DNA of 23,518 bases from a virus. The stretch covers positions 1 to 23,518 of the IMG/VR virus record IMGVR_UViG_3300046463_000481. One strand, given 5' to 3'. The translations under genes and the position numbers were made by a program. The notes beneath the pieces were generated by a model, which worked only from the letters and a program-made list of their open reading frames with translations, was not told the origin of the DNA and did no database searches. Of the stretch, positions 3,401-22,503 are shown in pieces. Every line of letters starts with the position of its first letter. Within the stretch, counting starts at the first letter, position 1.

Positions 3401-3474
3401 ATTTCATCTAGGCTGGTTTTTGCCTCAATCGCATCGGCCGAGTCGATCTTGATGCCGAGTTCAGAAATGTTCAT
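418..3474 (-). CDS. Tail tape measure protein (lambda gpH type)
   Basis: 1018 residues, the longest gene in the window. It sets tail length and is ejected with the DNA. The N-terminal ~200 residues are helical with heptad-like repeats (prophage tail length tape-measure N-domain). A Gly/Ala-rich membrane segment lies at about 209-234. Long Gln/Ala/Lys-rich coiled coil fills about 395-750. Residues about 770-845 carry the lambda tape-measure C-terminal signature (WANYLDSA, then SMEDAVVNFAMTGKLSF and ADMARIA). The Gly-rich tail contains GEAGPEAIMPL. Start ATG has AAGGTGA upstream. It follows the G/T chaperone genes, as in lambda. Large plus-strand open frames inside it are shadows. Confidence 0.95.
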   Translation of the reverse strand: MNISELGIKIDSADAIEAKTSLDEMAKAGGRAEQSAVSLMNEMQALEKSLSTSAKTTQDLAKQRDALSKLTKTGAYGEAEAAKISAQLDKQQVALAKSAMDEQKALNSLLGAIDPARAALAKLDTQVEQLGKHLDAGRISQDEYNSALSKIDKDYDKLNKTTTGFDKLRLGTRQAQENVVQLGNALSSGDWGSGVRAVAQLGAGAGAGAAGLLAILGPLALATAAVGGLAYAFYKGSEEQDSYNKSLILTGNYAGVSAGQLGDMARQVSATVGTTGQAAAVLALLADNGKIAGESFTGITRAAVSMQEATGKAVSETVAEFAKLADDPVKASAALNEQYHYLTASVYSQIAALEKQGDHAGAVKLATEQYADAINQRTPKILENLSFWEKGYNAVARAADGLKNIGRRDINAEIETAQNDLREAESMDGLFQSQKSKDALIEFRRNRLNMLEDQKAAEADIAKWQGEQAKAQGDAVSSMAKIDALTKSAWTNEQKRTEAIKEYKRQLEDIRKVAPNDPRLNQAAIDKNLANINDQFKDPKAAGTQVDLTSFNNAKNNLAAIGEEYKNAQKELDAAQKAGIVSQADYALKREALIGNERDEVTAAYEAEIAALESAKAKKTTSAAQSIQLDQKIADARAGMVKAQKEADSQLEVLATNETGRLARQERSITTYVQALAQQQRALELAGQRAVLGVGQGDRQNALNNELNSQQDRFAQQSLELANQKSDPSRNMSEEEFTRKSQALADANKAATDQIRQNYADVEAAQGDWTKGATSAWANYLDSASNIAGQTKTLFGNAFSSMEDAVVNFAMTGKLSFADFTKSILADMARIATRQASSALLSSLVGAATSYFTGGGGGNGLAAGSAGATSSNLGASSAGYSSSYFPQALGGAWSSGVQMFANGGAFTNSIVSAPTAFGMAGGRAGVMGEAGPEAIMPLTRTSSGKLGVLAAGGGSGTAISISAPVTVVTQDRGSEGMQIDQQALSKNLQTQMRAVAERVVADSWQPGGASFRRANGRA

Positions 3475-3501
3475 CGACTCACCTTGAATAAGTGCCCGTG
3501 T

Positions 3502-3825
3502 TTACGGGCTGTTGTCGCGGCCTTCCGCCATAACCGCGATGGCTTCCGATTCCATGACACGGATATCCTGGAAAACACTCGGGCGCTCCTTCGCCGGGAT
3601 ACCGACAAGCTTCATCACGTTGGGTAGCACGCCATAATCGAGCCCGGTTGCGCCGCATGCGCCAGTGCGCCACTGGGTTCCCATCGCATCCATGACGAGA
3701 AAGGACGGCCAGTTGTCTGGCCAGACTTCGATGGTTTCGTCGTAGTCCTCCGGCGAGAAGCCGAACAAGGCCATCTGCTCCGCCGATCCTTCGGGTTCAT
3801 AGAGCGCACGGGCGGCGGCGGTCAG
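3502..3825 (-). CDS. Tail assembly chaperone, T-domain (DUF1799) made by -1 frameshift from the upstream gene
   Basis: The conserved part (90 residues from an internal ATG at 3774) starts MALFGFSPEDYDE and includes VWPDNWPS, TQWRTGACGATGLDY and DIRVMESEA, which is the DUF1799 pattern; in lambda-like phages this is the T part of gpGT. The open frame continues upstream with no stop as LTAAARALYEPEGSAEQ and enters the end of the preceding chaperone gene exactly at a GGGAAAC heptamer. Slippage there would give a 234-residue fusion (127 + 107). The internal ATG has GGAG 5 bases upstream, so independent starts are also possible. The fused reading is inference from a canonical site. Confidence 0.75.
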   Translation of the reverse strand: MTAAARALYEPEGSAEQMALFGFSPEDYDETIEVWPDNWPSFLVMDAMGTQWRTGACGATGLDYGVLPNVMKLVGIPAKERPSVFQDIRVMESEAIAVMAEGRDNSP

Positions 3826-6001: not shown

Positions 6002-6366
6002 GACCGCACCTGCAGTTCATATAGGATTGGGGTGCCGGCCGGGCTGACCACTTTCAGCGGCGGAACAATGGACCAGGTGCGCCCCTGAATGATCACCTTG
6101 TTCAGCAGGTCCGGCACCCACTCCAGCCCCTGCGCGGCGATCTTCAACTTTTTGTCGCCCTGCTTGATGAGGCTGTTGCTCTGGAATTCCTGACCGGTGA
6201 AGTCGAGCAGAATGCCTTGGGCGGTCTGCTCTTTGGTGCTGTCGGGCGGTGCCGAACCGGTTTCCGGGTCGTACTCACCGACAGTCGTTGCGCGGATGGC
6301 CACCGGCTGACCAAACTCTCTGATCATGTCCAGAGCCATCACGGCCATTTCGTCGTAGAAGGCCAT
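5998..6366 (-). CDS. Probable head-tail connector (head closure) protein
   Basis: 122 residues starting MAFYDEMAVMALDMIREFGQ. The short N-terminal helix, then beta-rich body (KKLKIAAQGLE, VIIQGRTWSIVPPLKVVSPA, GTPILYELQV), matches the small head-closure/stopper proteins between the adaptor and the tail terminator in siphophages. AGGAG lies before the ATG. No specific family name can be given from sequence alone; it could also be annotated as a conserved phage protein of unknown function. Confidence 0.6.
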   Translation of the reverse strand: MAFYDEMAVMALDMIREFGQPVAIRATTVGEYDPETGSAPPDSTKEQTAQGILLDFTGQEFQSNSLIKQGDKKLKIAAQGLEWVPDLLNKVIIQGRTWSIVPPLKVVSPAGTPILYELQVRS

Positions 6367-16301: not shown

Positions 16302-16325
16302 AAGCCCCAGCGAGTGCTGAGGCTT
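16302..16325 (-). terminator. Rho-independent terminator between the cargo module and holin
   Basis: Minus strand: AAGCCTCAGC-ACTC-GCTGGGGCTT is a 10-bp stem (one G-U pair) followed by TTTCGTTTTC. It lies after the 106-residue gene and before the holin, closing the Com module downstream. Confidence 0.75.
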
Positions 16326-16366: not shown

Positions 16367-16687
16367 TTAAGACAACAGGTCGTAGGTCAAGCTCACACGG
16401 ATGTTGCCGTTCATCGACGTACACCACAACCCAAAGCCGGCCGGAAGAAGAACCGGATAAGGAAGTTGAATGGTGTTACCGCCCAGAGTAAGCAACGCAG
16501 GCTTTGTGCGATAGTCACTTGCATCCTTAGGCTTCGTAGTGCCGGTGATGAGCGCGGCATTGAACGAACCCGTCGCCGTGCACGTGCGGATTACGACACC
16601 TGCAACGTTATCTTCAGGCTTAATGAGCTCGGTTACTCCAATTGCGTCACTGTTGAAGAACTTTGCACCTAGAGTTACTGGTTCCAT
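16367..16687 (-). CDS. Unknown small protein, second gene of the Com cargo module
   Basis: 106 residues starting MEPVTLGAKFFNSDAIGVTE; no family recognised. The composition suggests a beta-sandwich: VAGVVIRTCTATGSFNAALI, KPALLTLGGNTIQLPYPVLL, PAGFGLWC and a final NGNIRVSLTYDLLS strand. There is no signal peptide. It could be a minor virion or surface component, but nothing shows that. The start is set by AAAGGUAU upstream of the ATG in a leader that copies the com-cargo junction upstream of the first cargo gene, including a com 3' remnant whose stop (TAA, 16691-16693) lies 3 bases before this ATG. It is followed by two hairpins. Confidence 0.75.
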   Translation of the reverse strand: MEPVTLGAKFFNSDAIGVTELIKPEDNVAGVVIRTCTATGSFNAALITGTTKPKDASDYRTKPALLTLGGNTIQLPYPVLLPAGFGLWCTSMNGNIRVSLTYDLLS

Positions 16688-16774
16688 TTTTTATACCTTT
16701 TGAGTCGAATGATTGTTCGCGGAAAATTCCGCTTTCATGTCGCTCAAAGGCGATAGGTTTGAAGCTCGAGGCTT
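16688..16774 (-). pseudogene. Duplicated com 3' end and leader (com remnant)
   Basis: Bases 16702-16754 match 17451-17503 at 49 of 53 positions, and after a gap of about 8-9 bases the shared GCTCGAGGCT continues the match to 16774. Read in the com frame it encodes PLSDMKAEFSANNHSTQKV then TAA, close to the end of Com (PLSDMKAESSATNHSTL). No Com zinc-finger part remains, so this is a fragment, not a gene. It provides the upstream leader of the 106-residue gene. The small GCGGA/UCCGC hairpin is kept with changes only in its loop (16719-16732). Confidence 0.8.
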
Positions 16775-16855
16775 TCTTCCAAGGCGAAAGGCAGACTGGG
16801 TCTTTCGACCAGCCAAACCCGTTTAACAAAACGTCCTTACTGAGTCGGCTAGCCC

Positions 16856-17437
16856 TTAGAGCGGAGCGACACTGACCTTGTCGATAAAGGCAAAGTGAGC
16901 ATTTGGATTTTGATCGTTCCAAAAGCTCAGAGTGGTTTGAGGCGTGGTTGCAGTGAAGTCGTAGGTCTTGGTTTCCCAGACAGTTGCATTACTGGTTGCG
17001 ACAGGGGTGTCGAAGCTGGTCGTTTGCCCGGCAACCTTGACGTTGATGATGCCATTGCCACTGCGATTCACATACGTGGAGTTACCGGCGCTGAAGGTCA
17101 AACGGTAACGGGCGCCAACAACAGTGTTGATGTTCTGTTGAATGCCGCCGCCATTCAGATAGGTGTAGTTGGCGAGGTCAACGCTCATCGAACCATCAGC
17201 GGCCGCGGAGTTACCGATCGCAGCACCGACGTTAATGTATTCAACGCCAGACAGAAAGGTCGTCCAGCCAGTGACGAAGTCGGCCTGGGCAGGAGTATTG
17301 AGGATGCAGTCGTTGCTGCAGCCAGGGGATTCAAAGCTGCCGTTTACTACCAGCTCTGCGCCGAAGGCGGCGCCACCCGATGCGAGCAAAGCAGCAGCCA
17401 ATGCGACCGGAGCAAAACCGTTTTTGATTGATTTCAT
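16856..17437 (-). CDS. Secreted beta-rich protein, DUF642/choice-of-anchor-like, first Com cargo gene
   Basis: 193 residues. A signal peptide is clear: MKSIKNGF, a hydrophobic APVALAAALLASGGAA stretch and AFGA before residue 28. The mature part begins ELVVNGSFESPGC, the typical opening of DUF642 and choice-of-anchor proteins with a galactose-binding-like jelly roll. GIQQNINTVVGARYRLTFSA, the WETKTYDFTATTPQTTLSFW region and IDKVSVAPL fit that fold. Cys40 and Cys44 may pair. There is no C-terminal sorting motif or anchor. It would be exported, possibly binding a surface glycan. The ATG lies 8 bases after the com stop, behind an AGG site. Phage carriage suggests lysogenic conversion or an adsorption effect; function is not established. 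Confidence 0.75.
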   Translation of the reverse strand: MKSIKNGFAPVALAAALLASGGAAFGAELVVNGSFESPGCSNDCILNTPAQADFVTGWTTFLSGVEYINVGAAIGNSAAADGSMSVDLANYTYLNGGGIQQNINTVVGARYRLTFSAGNSTYVNRSGNGIINVKVAGQTTSFDTPVATSNATVWETKTYDFTATTPQTTLSFWNDQNPNAHFAFIDKVSVAPL

Positions 17438-17445
17438 TTTTGTAC

Positions 17446-17631
17446 CTATAGAGTCGAATGATTTGTCGCGGAGGATTCCGCTTTCATGTCGCTCAAAGGC
17501 GATCGCTCGAGGCTCGCGGCCTTCTCATGATTCAACGTCCCGCATCGGGAACATTTGATCTGGAGCTCGGTAAACTCACCCACGCGGGCGAGAAGTCTGT
17601 TGCATTTTCCACATCTGCATTCTTTCAACAT
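17446..17631 (-). CDS. com: Mu Com-like zinc-finger translational regulator
   Basis: 61 residues from MLKECRCGKCNRLLARVGEF. The zinc-finger pairs are Cys7-Cys10 and Cys27-Cys30 (IKCSRCGTLNH), matching the phage Mu Com family (RCGKCNRLLA then L.IKC.RC...NH). Mu Com is a small RNA-binding protein that opens the mom message for translation. The C-terminal 25 residues are polar and extra to the core. The ATG is preceded by GGAC 8 bases upstream; a longer open frame to 17874 reads through the terminators and lacks family similarity. Downstream is not mom but a secreted protein. The 3' end of com is part of a leader repeated upstream of the second cargo gene. Confidence 0.85.
   Translation of the reverse strand: MLKECRCGKCNRLLARVGEFTELQIKCSRCGTLNHEKAASLERSPLSDMKAESSATNHSTL
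17449..17503 (-). promoter_or_regulatory. Candidate Com-responsive leader of the first cargo gene
   Basis: The com 3' end, bases 17451-17503, is duplicated at 16702-16754 (49 of 53 identical). On the minus strand it carries a GCGGA-AUCC-UCCGC hairpin (17468-17481) about 30-45 bases before the cargo ATG, then UUCGACUC and an AGGU ribosome-binding site. In the copy the stem is unchanged while the loop reads AUUU. Retention next to two unrelated genes suggests cis control of translation. Com binding is inference. Confidence 0.6.
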
Positions 17632-17828: not shown

Positions 17829-17854
17829 AAAAACCGGCTCGCCGGCCGGTTTTT
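17829..17854. terminator. Strong bidirectional terminator, first of a tandem pair
   Basis: AAACCGGC and GCCGGTTT flank a 6-base loop, extended by A/T arms to give T-tracts on both strands. It lies about 30 bases after the predicted late transcript start, directly downstream of the promoter at 17893-17921. Confidence 0.85.
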
Positions 17855-20209: not shown

Positions 20210-21003
20210 TGAGCCGCACTCCTTGCTTCTAATTGTTCGGCCTGCTGAATCAGCAGCGCCCGGCGATCCGCCAGCTCATTGGCTGCCAGAATTCGCAGTT
20301 CTGTTTTTTCCTCGGCCGATGCTTGGCGCATGGCGAGCATCGAATCCTTTACCGCGGCGAGCTTCTCGCGCAGTTTTGGCGAAGGCCGCGCAACCTCACC
20401 GGTGAGCAGCGCAACGACGGCACGACCGTCTTCAGTGACCGGCGCGACACTCAAGTCGGCCAAGTACAACTGCCCGCGTTCATGTGGGATCCGTTGCATC
20501 TGCACAGCTTTGGTGATCGCCTGTGTGCGGCGGTTGGCGTCGAAACCGACCGACACGTGCCAATTGACGTGTTTGTTGTCCTCCCGAGCCTGACTCACCA
20601 AACGCTCGTAAGCGCTGTTGAACGCCATGCGCGCACCGACCTTGTCGCCGGCATCCAGGACAGGTTTCGCAGCTGCCAGCGCGAGCTGAATTTCATCAGT
20701 CAGCACCACTGTTTCGAACTCGTCGTTCGTCGTCATGGCGATCGCCCAAGCTTCGTCTTTGCCCGGGCGACCGTCGGCGATCTGAACTCGCTGGAGAATG
20801 TCAGCCATTGCCAACTTGCCTTTCACTTCGAAGCGGCAAGCCTTCAAAGCGGCCTTCACCACCTGAACCGGGTAAGCACAGAGATCTTCAGCCATGATCG
20901 CCGCAGTACCTGGGTTCATTTCCTGACCCATGGCCTCGGCGGTGGCGCAGATCGCAGCAGCGAGCCCGGCAACCTGCTGGTCATTCATTTCAAAGGTATT
21001 CAT
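20206..21003 (-). CDS. Possible replication accessory / helicase-loader-type protein
   Basis: 265 residues starting MNTFEMNDQQVAGLAAAICA. Residues about 28-70 (AIMAEDLCAYPVQVVKAALK then FEVKGKLAMADILQRVQIAD) resemble the N-terminal helical domain of phage helicase loaders, where a helix pair ends ...YP...V..AL......F....D.L. The middle repeats DEAWAIAMTTNDEFETVVLT, and the C-terminus is a basic coiled coil (KLREKLAAVKDSMLAMRQAS). It directly follows the O-like initiator with a 14-base overlap, the lambda P position. The loader role is inference; no ATPase motif is present. Confidence 0.55.
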   Translation of the reverse strand: MNTFEMNDQQVAGLAAAICATAEAMGQEMNPGTAAIMAEDLCAYPVQVVKAALKACRFEVKGKLAMADILQRVQIADGRPGKDEAWAIAMTTNDEFETVVLTDEIQLALAAAKPVLDAGDKVGARMAFNSAYERLVSQAREDNKHVNWHVSVGFDANRRTQAITKAVQMQRIPHERGQLYLADLSVAPVTEDGRAVVALLTGEVARPSPKLREKLAAVKDSMLAMRQASAEEKTELRILAANELADRRALLIQQAEQLEARSAAQ

Positions 21004-21919
21004 TGCGCTCTCCCGCTTGGCGCTTGGCCAAGACCATTTGCGCGGCCTGCTCGGCGGCGGAGACGTTCGCCTCGGTGCGCTCCATCTGGCGAGCAGTTGT
21101 CCCGTTGACGCGTTGACCGGTCACCCACTGGGTGTGGTAGCTCTCGGCGTTGGCCAGCAGTTCGTTGAGGCTGTGGCACTTGCGCAGGACGGCGGCATCG
21201 CTGGTTTTCAGGAAGTGGGCAGCGACGTGGTGAGCGACATCGGCGCCGAGGCGATCGACCAGTTGGCCGAGTTGTCCACCGACCTTGGCGTTCCACACGG
21301 GCCAGGTGCTGTAGCGCTTGCGGTAGGCCATGGCGTAGTTCGCCCAGACCTTGAAAGTTTTGCATGACTGGTCTTTTGGGCCCGGCATGTCAGCGGGAAT
21401 CTCAACCCGTGGCGCATCGGTGCGATCAACCACCAGCACCAAGCCGCGGGACTGAGCCGGCACAACCTCGGCGGGAGCCGGGGGTGCAATTGGTTCAATG
21501 ACCGGTTCCATGACTGATTCAAGAGAGTTACTGATTCTGGGTGCAGCTCCTGCACTACCCCCTGGTGCAGGAGATTCACTAGGGGGTGAACCTGCTGCAC
21601 TACCCGGATGAATCTTCTGCACTACCCCTGGTGCAGGAGGTGCACCACCACCGTCGAGGGTGAGGAAGTAAACGTTCGACGAATTCCCCTTTGGCCCACC
21701 CTTCCGGATCTCCTTGCGCAACAGTCCCGCATCACACAGAGCGGTGATGTGGTTCATGACAGAACGCTTGCTGATCTCGCACTGGTCGGCAATGTGCTGG
21801 TAGGAGGGCCAGCACTCGCCTACGTCGCTGGCGTTGTCGGCCAACTTGATCAGCACCAGCTTGCGCAGCGGATTACCAACGCGAAGCTTCATTGCGGCAA
21901 CCATAAGGCCCATGCTCAT
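20990..21919 (-). CDS. O-like replication initiator with winged helix (HTH_36)
   Basis: 309 residues. The N-terminal winged helix (about 12-85) reads NPLRKLVLIKLADNASDVGE, CWPSYQHIADQCEISKRSVM and HITALCDAGLLRKEIR, typical of HTH_36-type phage replication proteins. Residues about 95-165 are a Pro/Gly/Ala-rich linker whose DNA holds repeated CTGCACTACCC units. The C-terminal ~140 residues form a helical domain (KTFKVWANYAMAYRKRYSTW, QLGQLVDRLGADVAHHVAAH). In lambda, O binds iterons within its own gene and recruits P and DnaB; the layout here is comparable. Confidence 0.8.
   Translation of the reverse strand: MSMGLMVAAMKLRVGNPLRKLVLIKLADNASDVGECWPSYQHIADQCEISKRSVMNHITALCDAGLLRKEIRKGGPKGNSSNVYFLTLDGGGAPPAPGVVQKIHPGSAAGSPPSESPAPGGSAGAAPRISNSLESVMEPVIEPIAPPAPAEVVPAQSRGLVLVVDRTDAPRVEIPADMPGPKDQSCKTFKVWANYAMAYRKRYSTWPVWNAKVGGQLGQLVDRLGADVAHHVAAHFLKTSDAAVLRKCHSLNELLANAESYHTQWVTGQRVNGTTARQMERTEANVSAAEQAAQMVLAKRQAGERNEYL
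21541..21646. repeat. Iteron-like repeats inside the initiator gene, candidate origin
   Basis: CTGCACTACCC occurs at 21550-21560, 21595-21605 and 21617-21627. In the first and last copies it is followed by an inverted GTGCAG arm (CTGCAC-N8/9-GTGCAG). GGTGCAGGAG recurs at 21564 and 21630, and TTCAC/GTGAA form a further inverted pair at 21576-21590. All lie in the linker-coding part of the initiator gene, next to a more AT-rich stretch at about 21500-21540. Such placement recalls lambda ori inside gene O. Confidence 0.5.
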
Positions 21920-22503
21920 GCTGCACCTCCGGCGAACGCGCGGTAATCAATCGTCCGCACGCCCTTCCAGCTATTGCAGGACATGCAAAGGGTCTGGAGG
22001 TTGCCCAAAGAAGCCTCTCCACCTTGGCTTTCAGGTACGACGTGATCGGCCCTCAAGCGCATCAGCGCCGAGCAACCGCAGCGCAAACACGCGTGACCGT
22101 CGCGGGCGAATACCTGTGCACGCAAACCAGAAGGGATTGGTTTCTTTTTCGTCCTACGCCGAGGCGGGAGGACTGGCGGTTGGTAGGCGGTGATGTGACC
22201 CATACGGTTCGGGTTCCACTCACAGCCTTTTTCGGTGAGTCGGAATGCTTCAGGGCGAAGCTCAATCAAACCCGCCTCTTCCAGGGCCTTCAGCATGCGA
22301 TAAGCAGTGTCTGGCTTGTCAGTGAGCAGCGGCAGCTCCTCGATGATCTTGGCCTTGCTCAGCGCGAAGAAGATCCCGTCGTCAGTCTTGATTGGCTTTG
22401 TCCAGCTTGGGCAGCCATAGACAAAGGCGAACAGCAGAGCCTGCTGAGAATTCAGCCCCCACTCCAACGCCTTCACCTGATTGATCGTGACGGTGAATTG
22501 CAT
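21916..22503 (-). CDS. Winged-helix / HNH nuclease fusion protein
   Basis: 195 residues. The N-terminal ~95 residues form a winged-helix-like domain (EWGLNSQQALLFAFVYGCPS, then KAKIIEELPLLTDKPDTAYR and ALEEAGLIELRPEAFRLTEK). A basic linker PPRRRTKKKP leads to a C-terminal HNH domain: Cys139-x2-Cys142, Asp153-His154 (ADHVV), Asn168 and Cys173-x2-Cys176-Asn. All HNH residues are present. It lies between rha and the initiator gene, with ATGA overlap to the latter. Replication initiation-site nicking or a homing-type role are both possible. Confidence 0.8.
   Translation of the reverse strand: MQFTVTINQVKALEWGLNSQQALLFAFVYGCPSWTKPIKTDDGIFFALSKAKIIEELPLLTDKPDTAYRMLKALEEAGLIELRPEAFRLTEKGCEWNPNRMGHITAYQPPVLPPRRRTKKKPIPSGLRAQVFARDGHACLRCGCSALMRLRADHVVPESQGGEASLGNLQTLCMSCNSWKGVRTIDYRAFAGGAA

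Follow-up and report, generated by a model that had tools for sequence, protein, structure and literature searches.

A repeated leader with a predicted SD-hiding stem precedes exchangeable cargo genes, with and without com, in a tailed-phage genome and Pseudomonas prophages

The window, the whole 23.5-kb virus record analyzed here, carries tailed-phage genes that include NinG, an O-like replication protein, terminase, and portal. On its minus strand, a terminator-like site is followed by com, a DUF642 gene, a leader (leader 2) that repeats the one at the end of com (leader 1), a gene for a 106-aa protein, a second terminator-like site, and a holin gene (Table 1). With a terminator-like site at each end, the cassette comprising com, DUF642, leader 2, and the 106-aa gene has the appearance of a complete, stand-alone cargo unit. 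The com product is a four-cysteine zinc ribbon that exceeds the Pfam cut-off for PF10122 (66.6 bits against 22.9), and the com stop codon (17446-17448) overlaps the SD of the DUF642 gene. No mom gene follows com in the window; the cargo consists of the DUF642 protein and the 106-aa beta protein. A sigma-70 scan for a com promoter gave one match where 0.7 was expected, and none was credible.

The 106-aa protein is predicted by AlphaFold to form a confident beta-rich domain, with a mean pLDDT of 92.9. A profile search of the PDB with its family returned no match, and a Foldseek search with the protein itself returned weak fold matches (best E values of 1e-3 to 4e-3); from the predicted model, there may be a weak likeness to general jelly-roll or nucleoplasmin-like folds, or to virion turret or cement proteins. 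Elsewhere in the window (20990-22503), two neighboring genes match opposite ends of a single PHROG, phrog_11527. The first comprises its N-terminal part and an HNH nuclease domain, and the next comprises an O-like replication domain and its C-terminal part, an arrangement that looks like a domain exchange or a homing insertion.

Table 1 Features of the com cassette in the window, listed in minus-strand order.
Feature	Position	Strand	Support
Intrinsic-terminator-like site upstream of com	17832..17847	-	
com, 61-aa Mu-type Com zinc ribbon (MLKECRCGKCNRLL...HSTL)	17446..17631	-	PF10122, E 1.3e-18; phrog_6417, translational regulator
Com leader 1 (com-linked), ending at the DUF642 start codon (17437-17435)	17434..17526	-	cmsearch, model R1, 106.3 bits, E 1.1e-23
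Leader 1, box A hairpin AGGC-CGCGA-GCCT, motif CC(N)2GAG	17510..17522	-	motif, PMC6483171
Leader 1, box B hairpin TCGC-CTTTGA-GCGA, motif CC(N)3GAG	17489..17502	-	
Leader 1, cap hairpin GCGGA-ATCC-TCCGC (hairpin of the first-pass annotation)	17468..17481	-	
Leader 1, 3' arm TCATTCGACTCTATAGG, including SD AGG (17445-17447)	17445..17461	-	pairs with 17484-17500
Cargo 1, DUF642 protein, 193 aa, signal-peptide-like N-terminus	16856..17437	-	PF04862, E 5e-18; phrog_18458
Com leader 2 (leader-only, no adjoining com)	16685..16778	-	cmsearch, model R1, 100.3 bits, E 3.4e-22
Leader 2, box A hairpin AAGC-CTCGA-GCTT	16762..16774	-	
Leader 2, box B hairpin TCGC-CTTTGA-GCGA	16740..16753	-	
Leader 2, cap hairpin GCGGA-ATTT-TCCGC	16719..16732	-	
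Leader 2, 3' arm TCATTCGACTCAAAAGG, including SD AGG (16696-16698)	16696..16712	-	pairs with 16735-16751
Cargo 2, 106-aa single-domain beta protein (predicted); family behind ~100 Com leaders	16367..16687	-	AlphaFold pLDDT
Intrinsic-terminator-like site downstream of cargo 2	16302..16325	-	

The first-pass annotation had reported that the 3' end of com, with its ribosome-binding region, reappears ahead of a second, unrelated gene. This was borne out: positions 17451-17503 and 16702-16754 are identical at 49 of 53 bases, and the two copies do precede different genes, that for the DUF642 protein with its signal-peptide-like start and that for the 106-aa protein. When extended without gaps, the match covers 67 nt at 90%, with the copies 749 nt apart; with the block that contains box A (GCTCGAGGCT), the full repeated element comprises about 93 nt. 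Both leaders lie on the minus strand. Leader 1 sits inside the 3' end of the com coding sequence, and no com lies within 230 nt of leader 2, for which the nearest com start is 853 nt upstream. Both copies are seeds of the covariance model R1, making their two scores in Table 1 partly a matter of construction; numerous non-seed leaders also score strongly with the model. No Rfam family matched leader 1 or leader 2 above its gathering score, and the weak Rfam matches in the window fall outside the leaders, mostly on terminators.

Published work on Mu Com places its binding motif, CC(N)2-3GAG, in a hairpin loop and gives the mom target as a 19-mer hairpin, AUGC-CUGCGA-GCAU (PMC6483171). Each window leader carries two such hairpin-loop motifs upstream of the start codon, which we term box A and box B. 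Among 42 non-redundant leaders chosen through the Com protein, box A was found in 33 and box B in 40, against chance rates in shuffled sequence of 1.6% and 4.4%, respectively. Box A of the two window leaders differs by a paired change, from G-C in leader 1 to A-U in leader 2 (AGGC/GCCU and AAGC/GCUU), and changes on both sides occur at all four of its pairs. The pairs of box B are nearly invariant, so that its own covariation is thin, and 15 of 76 sequences lack the outermost pair; the case for box B as a Com site would come mainly from its conservation and from its having the same form as the known Mu Com site, with a few swapped stems (AACGC/GCGTT) in addition. By this analogy, boxes A and B are likely the Com sites in these leaders. 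The small GCGGA/UCCGC hairpin that had been pointed out earlier in both copies is indeed conserved, and the covariation check proposed for it found both-side changes at all five cap pairs in the com-selected set, but it most likely caps an SD-sequestering stem, with Com binding at the two other hairpins. A random recombination scar, an outcome named beforehand as fatal to a control element, is ruled out by hairpins that are conserved and covary across the com-selected leaders.

When the leaders were folded with RNAfold, the box B strand paired with the region ending in the SD, with the GCGGA/UCCGC hairpin as the cap. In the com-selected set, the mean pairing probability of the SD with the box B arm was 0.77, compared with 0.35 when the intervening sequence was shuffled. 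In a swap test, cognate arms gave -9.70 kcal/mol against -7.97 kcal/mol for arms taken from other leaders, and none of 10,000 permutations was as low. Changes in the box B loop are matched by the bases preceding the SD (CCTACGAG/CTCGTAGG, CCTGCGAG/CTTCGCAGG, and CCTATGA/TCATAGG). Across 86 aligned leaders, both-side changes were found at 18 of 24 pairs (9.4 in shuffles) and in 103 cells (21 in shuffles), counts that overstate independence and inflate the shuffle statistics because the sequences share ancestry and were aligned to fit the structure; slid controls were far lower. The SD-box B arm pairing is absent or nearly so in some distant leaders (L193, L209, and L210). A structure that hides the ribosome-binding signals is therefore a predicted feature of the leaders, in which it appears conserved and coevolving.

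Box B and the SD stem share bases and are mutually exclusive, which suggests that the SD becomes accessible when Com holds on to box B. We consider it probable that the window carries two copies of a translational leader that responds to Com, each with a stem that would hide the SD in an OFF state and a box B that would be bound in an ON state. In the OFF state, the strand GCCUUUGAGCGACAUGA would pair with the 17 bases ending in the SD (UCAUUCGACUC...AGG) beneath the GCGGA/UCCGC cap, and the SD would be hidden. In the ON state, Com produced from the same cassette would bind box B (UCGC-CUUUGA-GCGA, CC(N)3GAG), aided by box A (CC(N)2GAG); box B would take up bases of the OFF stem, the SD would become free, and the cargo would be translated. 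Leader 2, lacking a com of its own, would place the 106-aa gene within reach of the same Com. In a review, the role of these Com proteins is described as still to be explored (PMC6240691), which would leave room for Com to repress rather than activate, or to be one of several regulators of the leader. Either seems highly improbable: activation is what Com does for mom in Mu and what an overlap between box B and the SD stem would predict here, and forcing box B to form in the fold calculation raises SD exposure, with SD pairing dropping from 0.86 to 0.60.

The leader is not confined to the window. A search with a 27-base DNA pattern identified 102 viral stretches; the seeds from this pattern fix the 5' arm, so invariance there is uninformative, and loci were re-sampled by the Com zinc-ribbon peptide (80 loci from genomes, mostly Pseudomonas, and 80 viral loci). 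In the loci examined, model R1 yielded a set of 244 leaders. The leader recurs in numerous other Pseudomonas prophages, with some copies far from com, and arrays of two to four leaders exist. The genes behind the leaders encode a ~107-aa family (102 proteins), LlpA-type lectins (54), a DUF6242-like protein (17), colicin M-like bacteriocins (12), DUF642 proteins (12), a GH5 enzyme, an alginate lyase, and a pectate-lyase-like protein. The ~107-aa family, with a predicted beta fold, is the most common of these cargos and is uncharacterized; 14 of the 46 members tested match a PHROG that itself has no function assigned.

Several individual loci deserve mention. A 320-aa DUF6242-like gene that carries its own com-linked leader recurs one unit upstream of other Com cargo units, as in L125, L133, L152, L167, L178, L179, and others. 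The third leader of the array in the Pseudomonas sp. GM80 prophage (L149, from position 6057; also present in L035 and L139) precedes a 382-aa protein with no Pfam match, the C-terminal part of which is lysozyme-like by eye. Searches of plasmid and phage DNA with the bare leader gave Pseudomonas phage DVM-2008 (L001) as the sole match, at a locus that is the R-tailocin cluster of P. fluorescens Q8r1-96. There, an unannotated second com (3425-3607) directly precedes the colicin M-like gene cma, and cma was rejected as a leader-only case.

A com HMM applied without a zinc-ribbon requirement matches the leader itself, and nearly all leaders then seem com-linked; a strict zinc-ribbon test was used instead. 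By this test, 43 of the 244 leaders have no adjoining com, 25 of which have a com further upstream on the same strand. When 399 Pseudomonas genomes were drawn, 62 were found to carry a total of 91 leaders: 66 com-linked, 13 leader-only within 6 kb of com, and 12 orphan, the last in nine genomes. All 62 leader-bearing genomes contain com, including the nine with orphans, compared with a base rate of 30% in the draw; the chance of finding com in all nine would be about 2e-5 if the lineages were independent, which they are not fully. The orphan leaders lie ~853 kb from the sole com in one genome (G020) and on the other strand, ~2.5 Mb from com, in another (G081), and the nine also include one with com just downstream (G373) and one in which the leader has decayed (G339).

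These copies bear on whether Com is needed at all. Ribosomes finishing com could open the stem without Com, which counts against a Com requirement at com-linked leaders. Under such translational coupling, they would unfold the stem and re-initiate on cargo 1, Com would be dispensable, and leader-only copies would be poorly expressed relics of exchange. The overlap of the com stop codon with the SD fits this explanation. So does the finding that a premature com stop in P. syringae left lscB expression unchanged (PMC3899960), though lost coupling should have shown there too. This negative result weighs most heavily against a general Com requirement, unless additional com copies in the strain compensated. 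Leader-only and orphan copies, however, have no com reading frame ahead of them and in several cases are out of the com frame, yet they retain both Com boxes, the SD stem, and the spacing to the start codon; orphans, moreover, occur solely in genomes that have com. We therefore regard coupling as unlikely and prefer a Com-responsive leader.

A LexA-like box (CTGGTTGCATGTACAG or similar; CTG-N10-CAG) is located mostly at about -100 of first-in-line orphan leaders. With likeness to LexA boxes judged by consensus only, it was found upstream of 12 of 18 com-free leaders (L317, L322, L324, L326, L410, L412, L413, L416, and L417 are among the leaders that have it) compared with 1 of 189 com-linked leaders, and in seven of the nine orphan genomes; none was found upstream of the window leaders. 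The pattern suggests that orphan cargo may be transcribed in the SOS response, with translation also needing Com. We put forward, tentatively, a trans-acting regulon in which a single Com would switch on mobile leader-cargo modules chromosome-wide, including the orphans with LexA-like boxes, such that DNA damage and Com would form a two-key gate on the production of bacteriocins and secreted proteins. The benefit would be joint control of these secreted and bacteriocin cargos.

The window and the GM80 prophage region are close relatives. The stretch over which they are collinear (88.6%) starts upstream of com, takes in DUF642, and stops ~10 nt short of the second start codon. Past the second leader the cargo differs, being the 106-aa protein in the window and an LlpA-type lectin in the GM80 prophage. 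Leader 2 of the window has its counterpart in the collinear leader 2 of the GM80 prophage and is therefore, on this alignment, not a recent copy of leader 1. An LlpA module common to L149, L150, and L161 has its start within the leader and stops short of the next leader or unit, and the ~200 nt upstream of com through leader 1 are common to prophages with different cargo. The leader and its cargo thus appear to be exchanged as units, with breakpoints within or adjoining the leader. The earlier proposal that one control element had been copied in front of non-mom genes is upheld as regards a conserved leader with a Com motif, placed before several unrelated and exchangeable cargos, but not as regards a recent duplication.

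Junctions within the leader or at its edge, and a central block that is almost invariant, as a good recombination joint would be, raise the alternative that the repeat is a patch of DNA homology that mainly serves cargo swapping, its RNA structure inherited from the coding end of com. We find this quite improbable, given that paired changes preserve the stems of the sense-strand RNA, that the loop and the SD strand coevolve, that a start codon is present at every copy, and that orphan copies stand by themselves behind LexA-like boxes; recombination and RNA roles may also coexist. With a Com-responsive leader as the preferred reading, the finding is sound and larger than the first-pass annotation stated, namely a two-box leader that is portable, is predicted to hide the SD, and is found both with com and without it. 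Its description there as an undescribed modular cargo system holds for the leader-only copies, which are not in the literature searched, but not for the linkage of com to non-mom cargo, which is already published (PMC6240691, PMC3899960). As far as the open literature is searchable, we found no report of leader-only copies or of a box B/SD switch. Com leaders offer a route to new cargo, including the large uncharacterized ~107-aa family, and the leader may serve as a natural portable ON switch for translation.

In Pseudomonas, com has been described before LlpA, tailocin-cargo bacteriocins, and some lytic enzymes (Ghequire and De Mot; PMC6240691). It has also been described ahead of genes for levansucrase and glycosyl hydrolase (PMC3899960). 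The com-LlpA and tailocin accounts agree with our findings in the com family, the class of cargo, and the position before the cargo; the available text reports com itself, whereas leader RNA, leader-only copies, Com boxes, and orphans are absent from it (PMC6240691). The role of com before bacteriocins, a question left open in that text, is here put in testable form (PMC6240691).

The phage-associated promoter element (PAPE) of the P. syringae lscB/lscC and glycosyl hydrolase genes (PMC3899960, PMC3973379) is likewise a mobile unit of promoter, com, and leader ahead of different genes. Its lscB leader matches model R1 (37.9 bits) and has both Com boxes, and in the fold calculation the lscB unit has an SD stem with a different cap. 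As in PAPE, com in the window lies within a conserved upstream unit common to unrelated genes. The conserved 48-nt coding start of PAPE is not found in the window, where the DUF642 and 106-aa starts are unlike each other and unlike lscB. In contrast to the leader studied here, PAPE is described in the available text as a promoter, with a com in each copy, with Com immaterial for lscB, and with no leader-only modules (PMC3899960, PMC3973379). The com-dam and com-methyltransferase units of Pseudomonas phages B3 and UMP151 and Burkholderia phage Mana have tandem CC(N)2GAG and CC(N)3GAG hairpins in the 3' end of com, as here, but their cargo is a DNA methyltransferase and their leader is much shorter, with little room for an SD-hiding stem; a second leader was not seen within the stretches scanned.

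For decades, work on Com has treated it as an activator dedicated to a single gene, mom. The Mu com-mom system resembles the Pseudomonas leaders in its homologous Com zinc ribbon, its CC(N)3GAG hairpin with a six-base loop just before the start, and its hidden translation signals. It differs in that the Com hairpin lies beside the translation inhibition structure, whereas box B overlaps the SD-hiding stem, and in having a single well-formed box in the stretch scanned, compared with two Com boxes here. The Pseudomonas leaders also precede cargo other than mom and occur in several copies, some without com. Com may consequently be viewed as a possible regulator of a movable gene set, with a defined RNA target in Pseudomonas.
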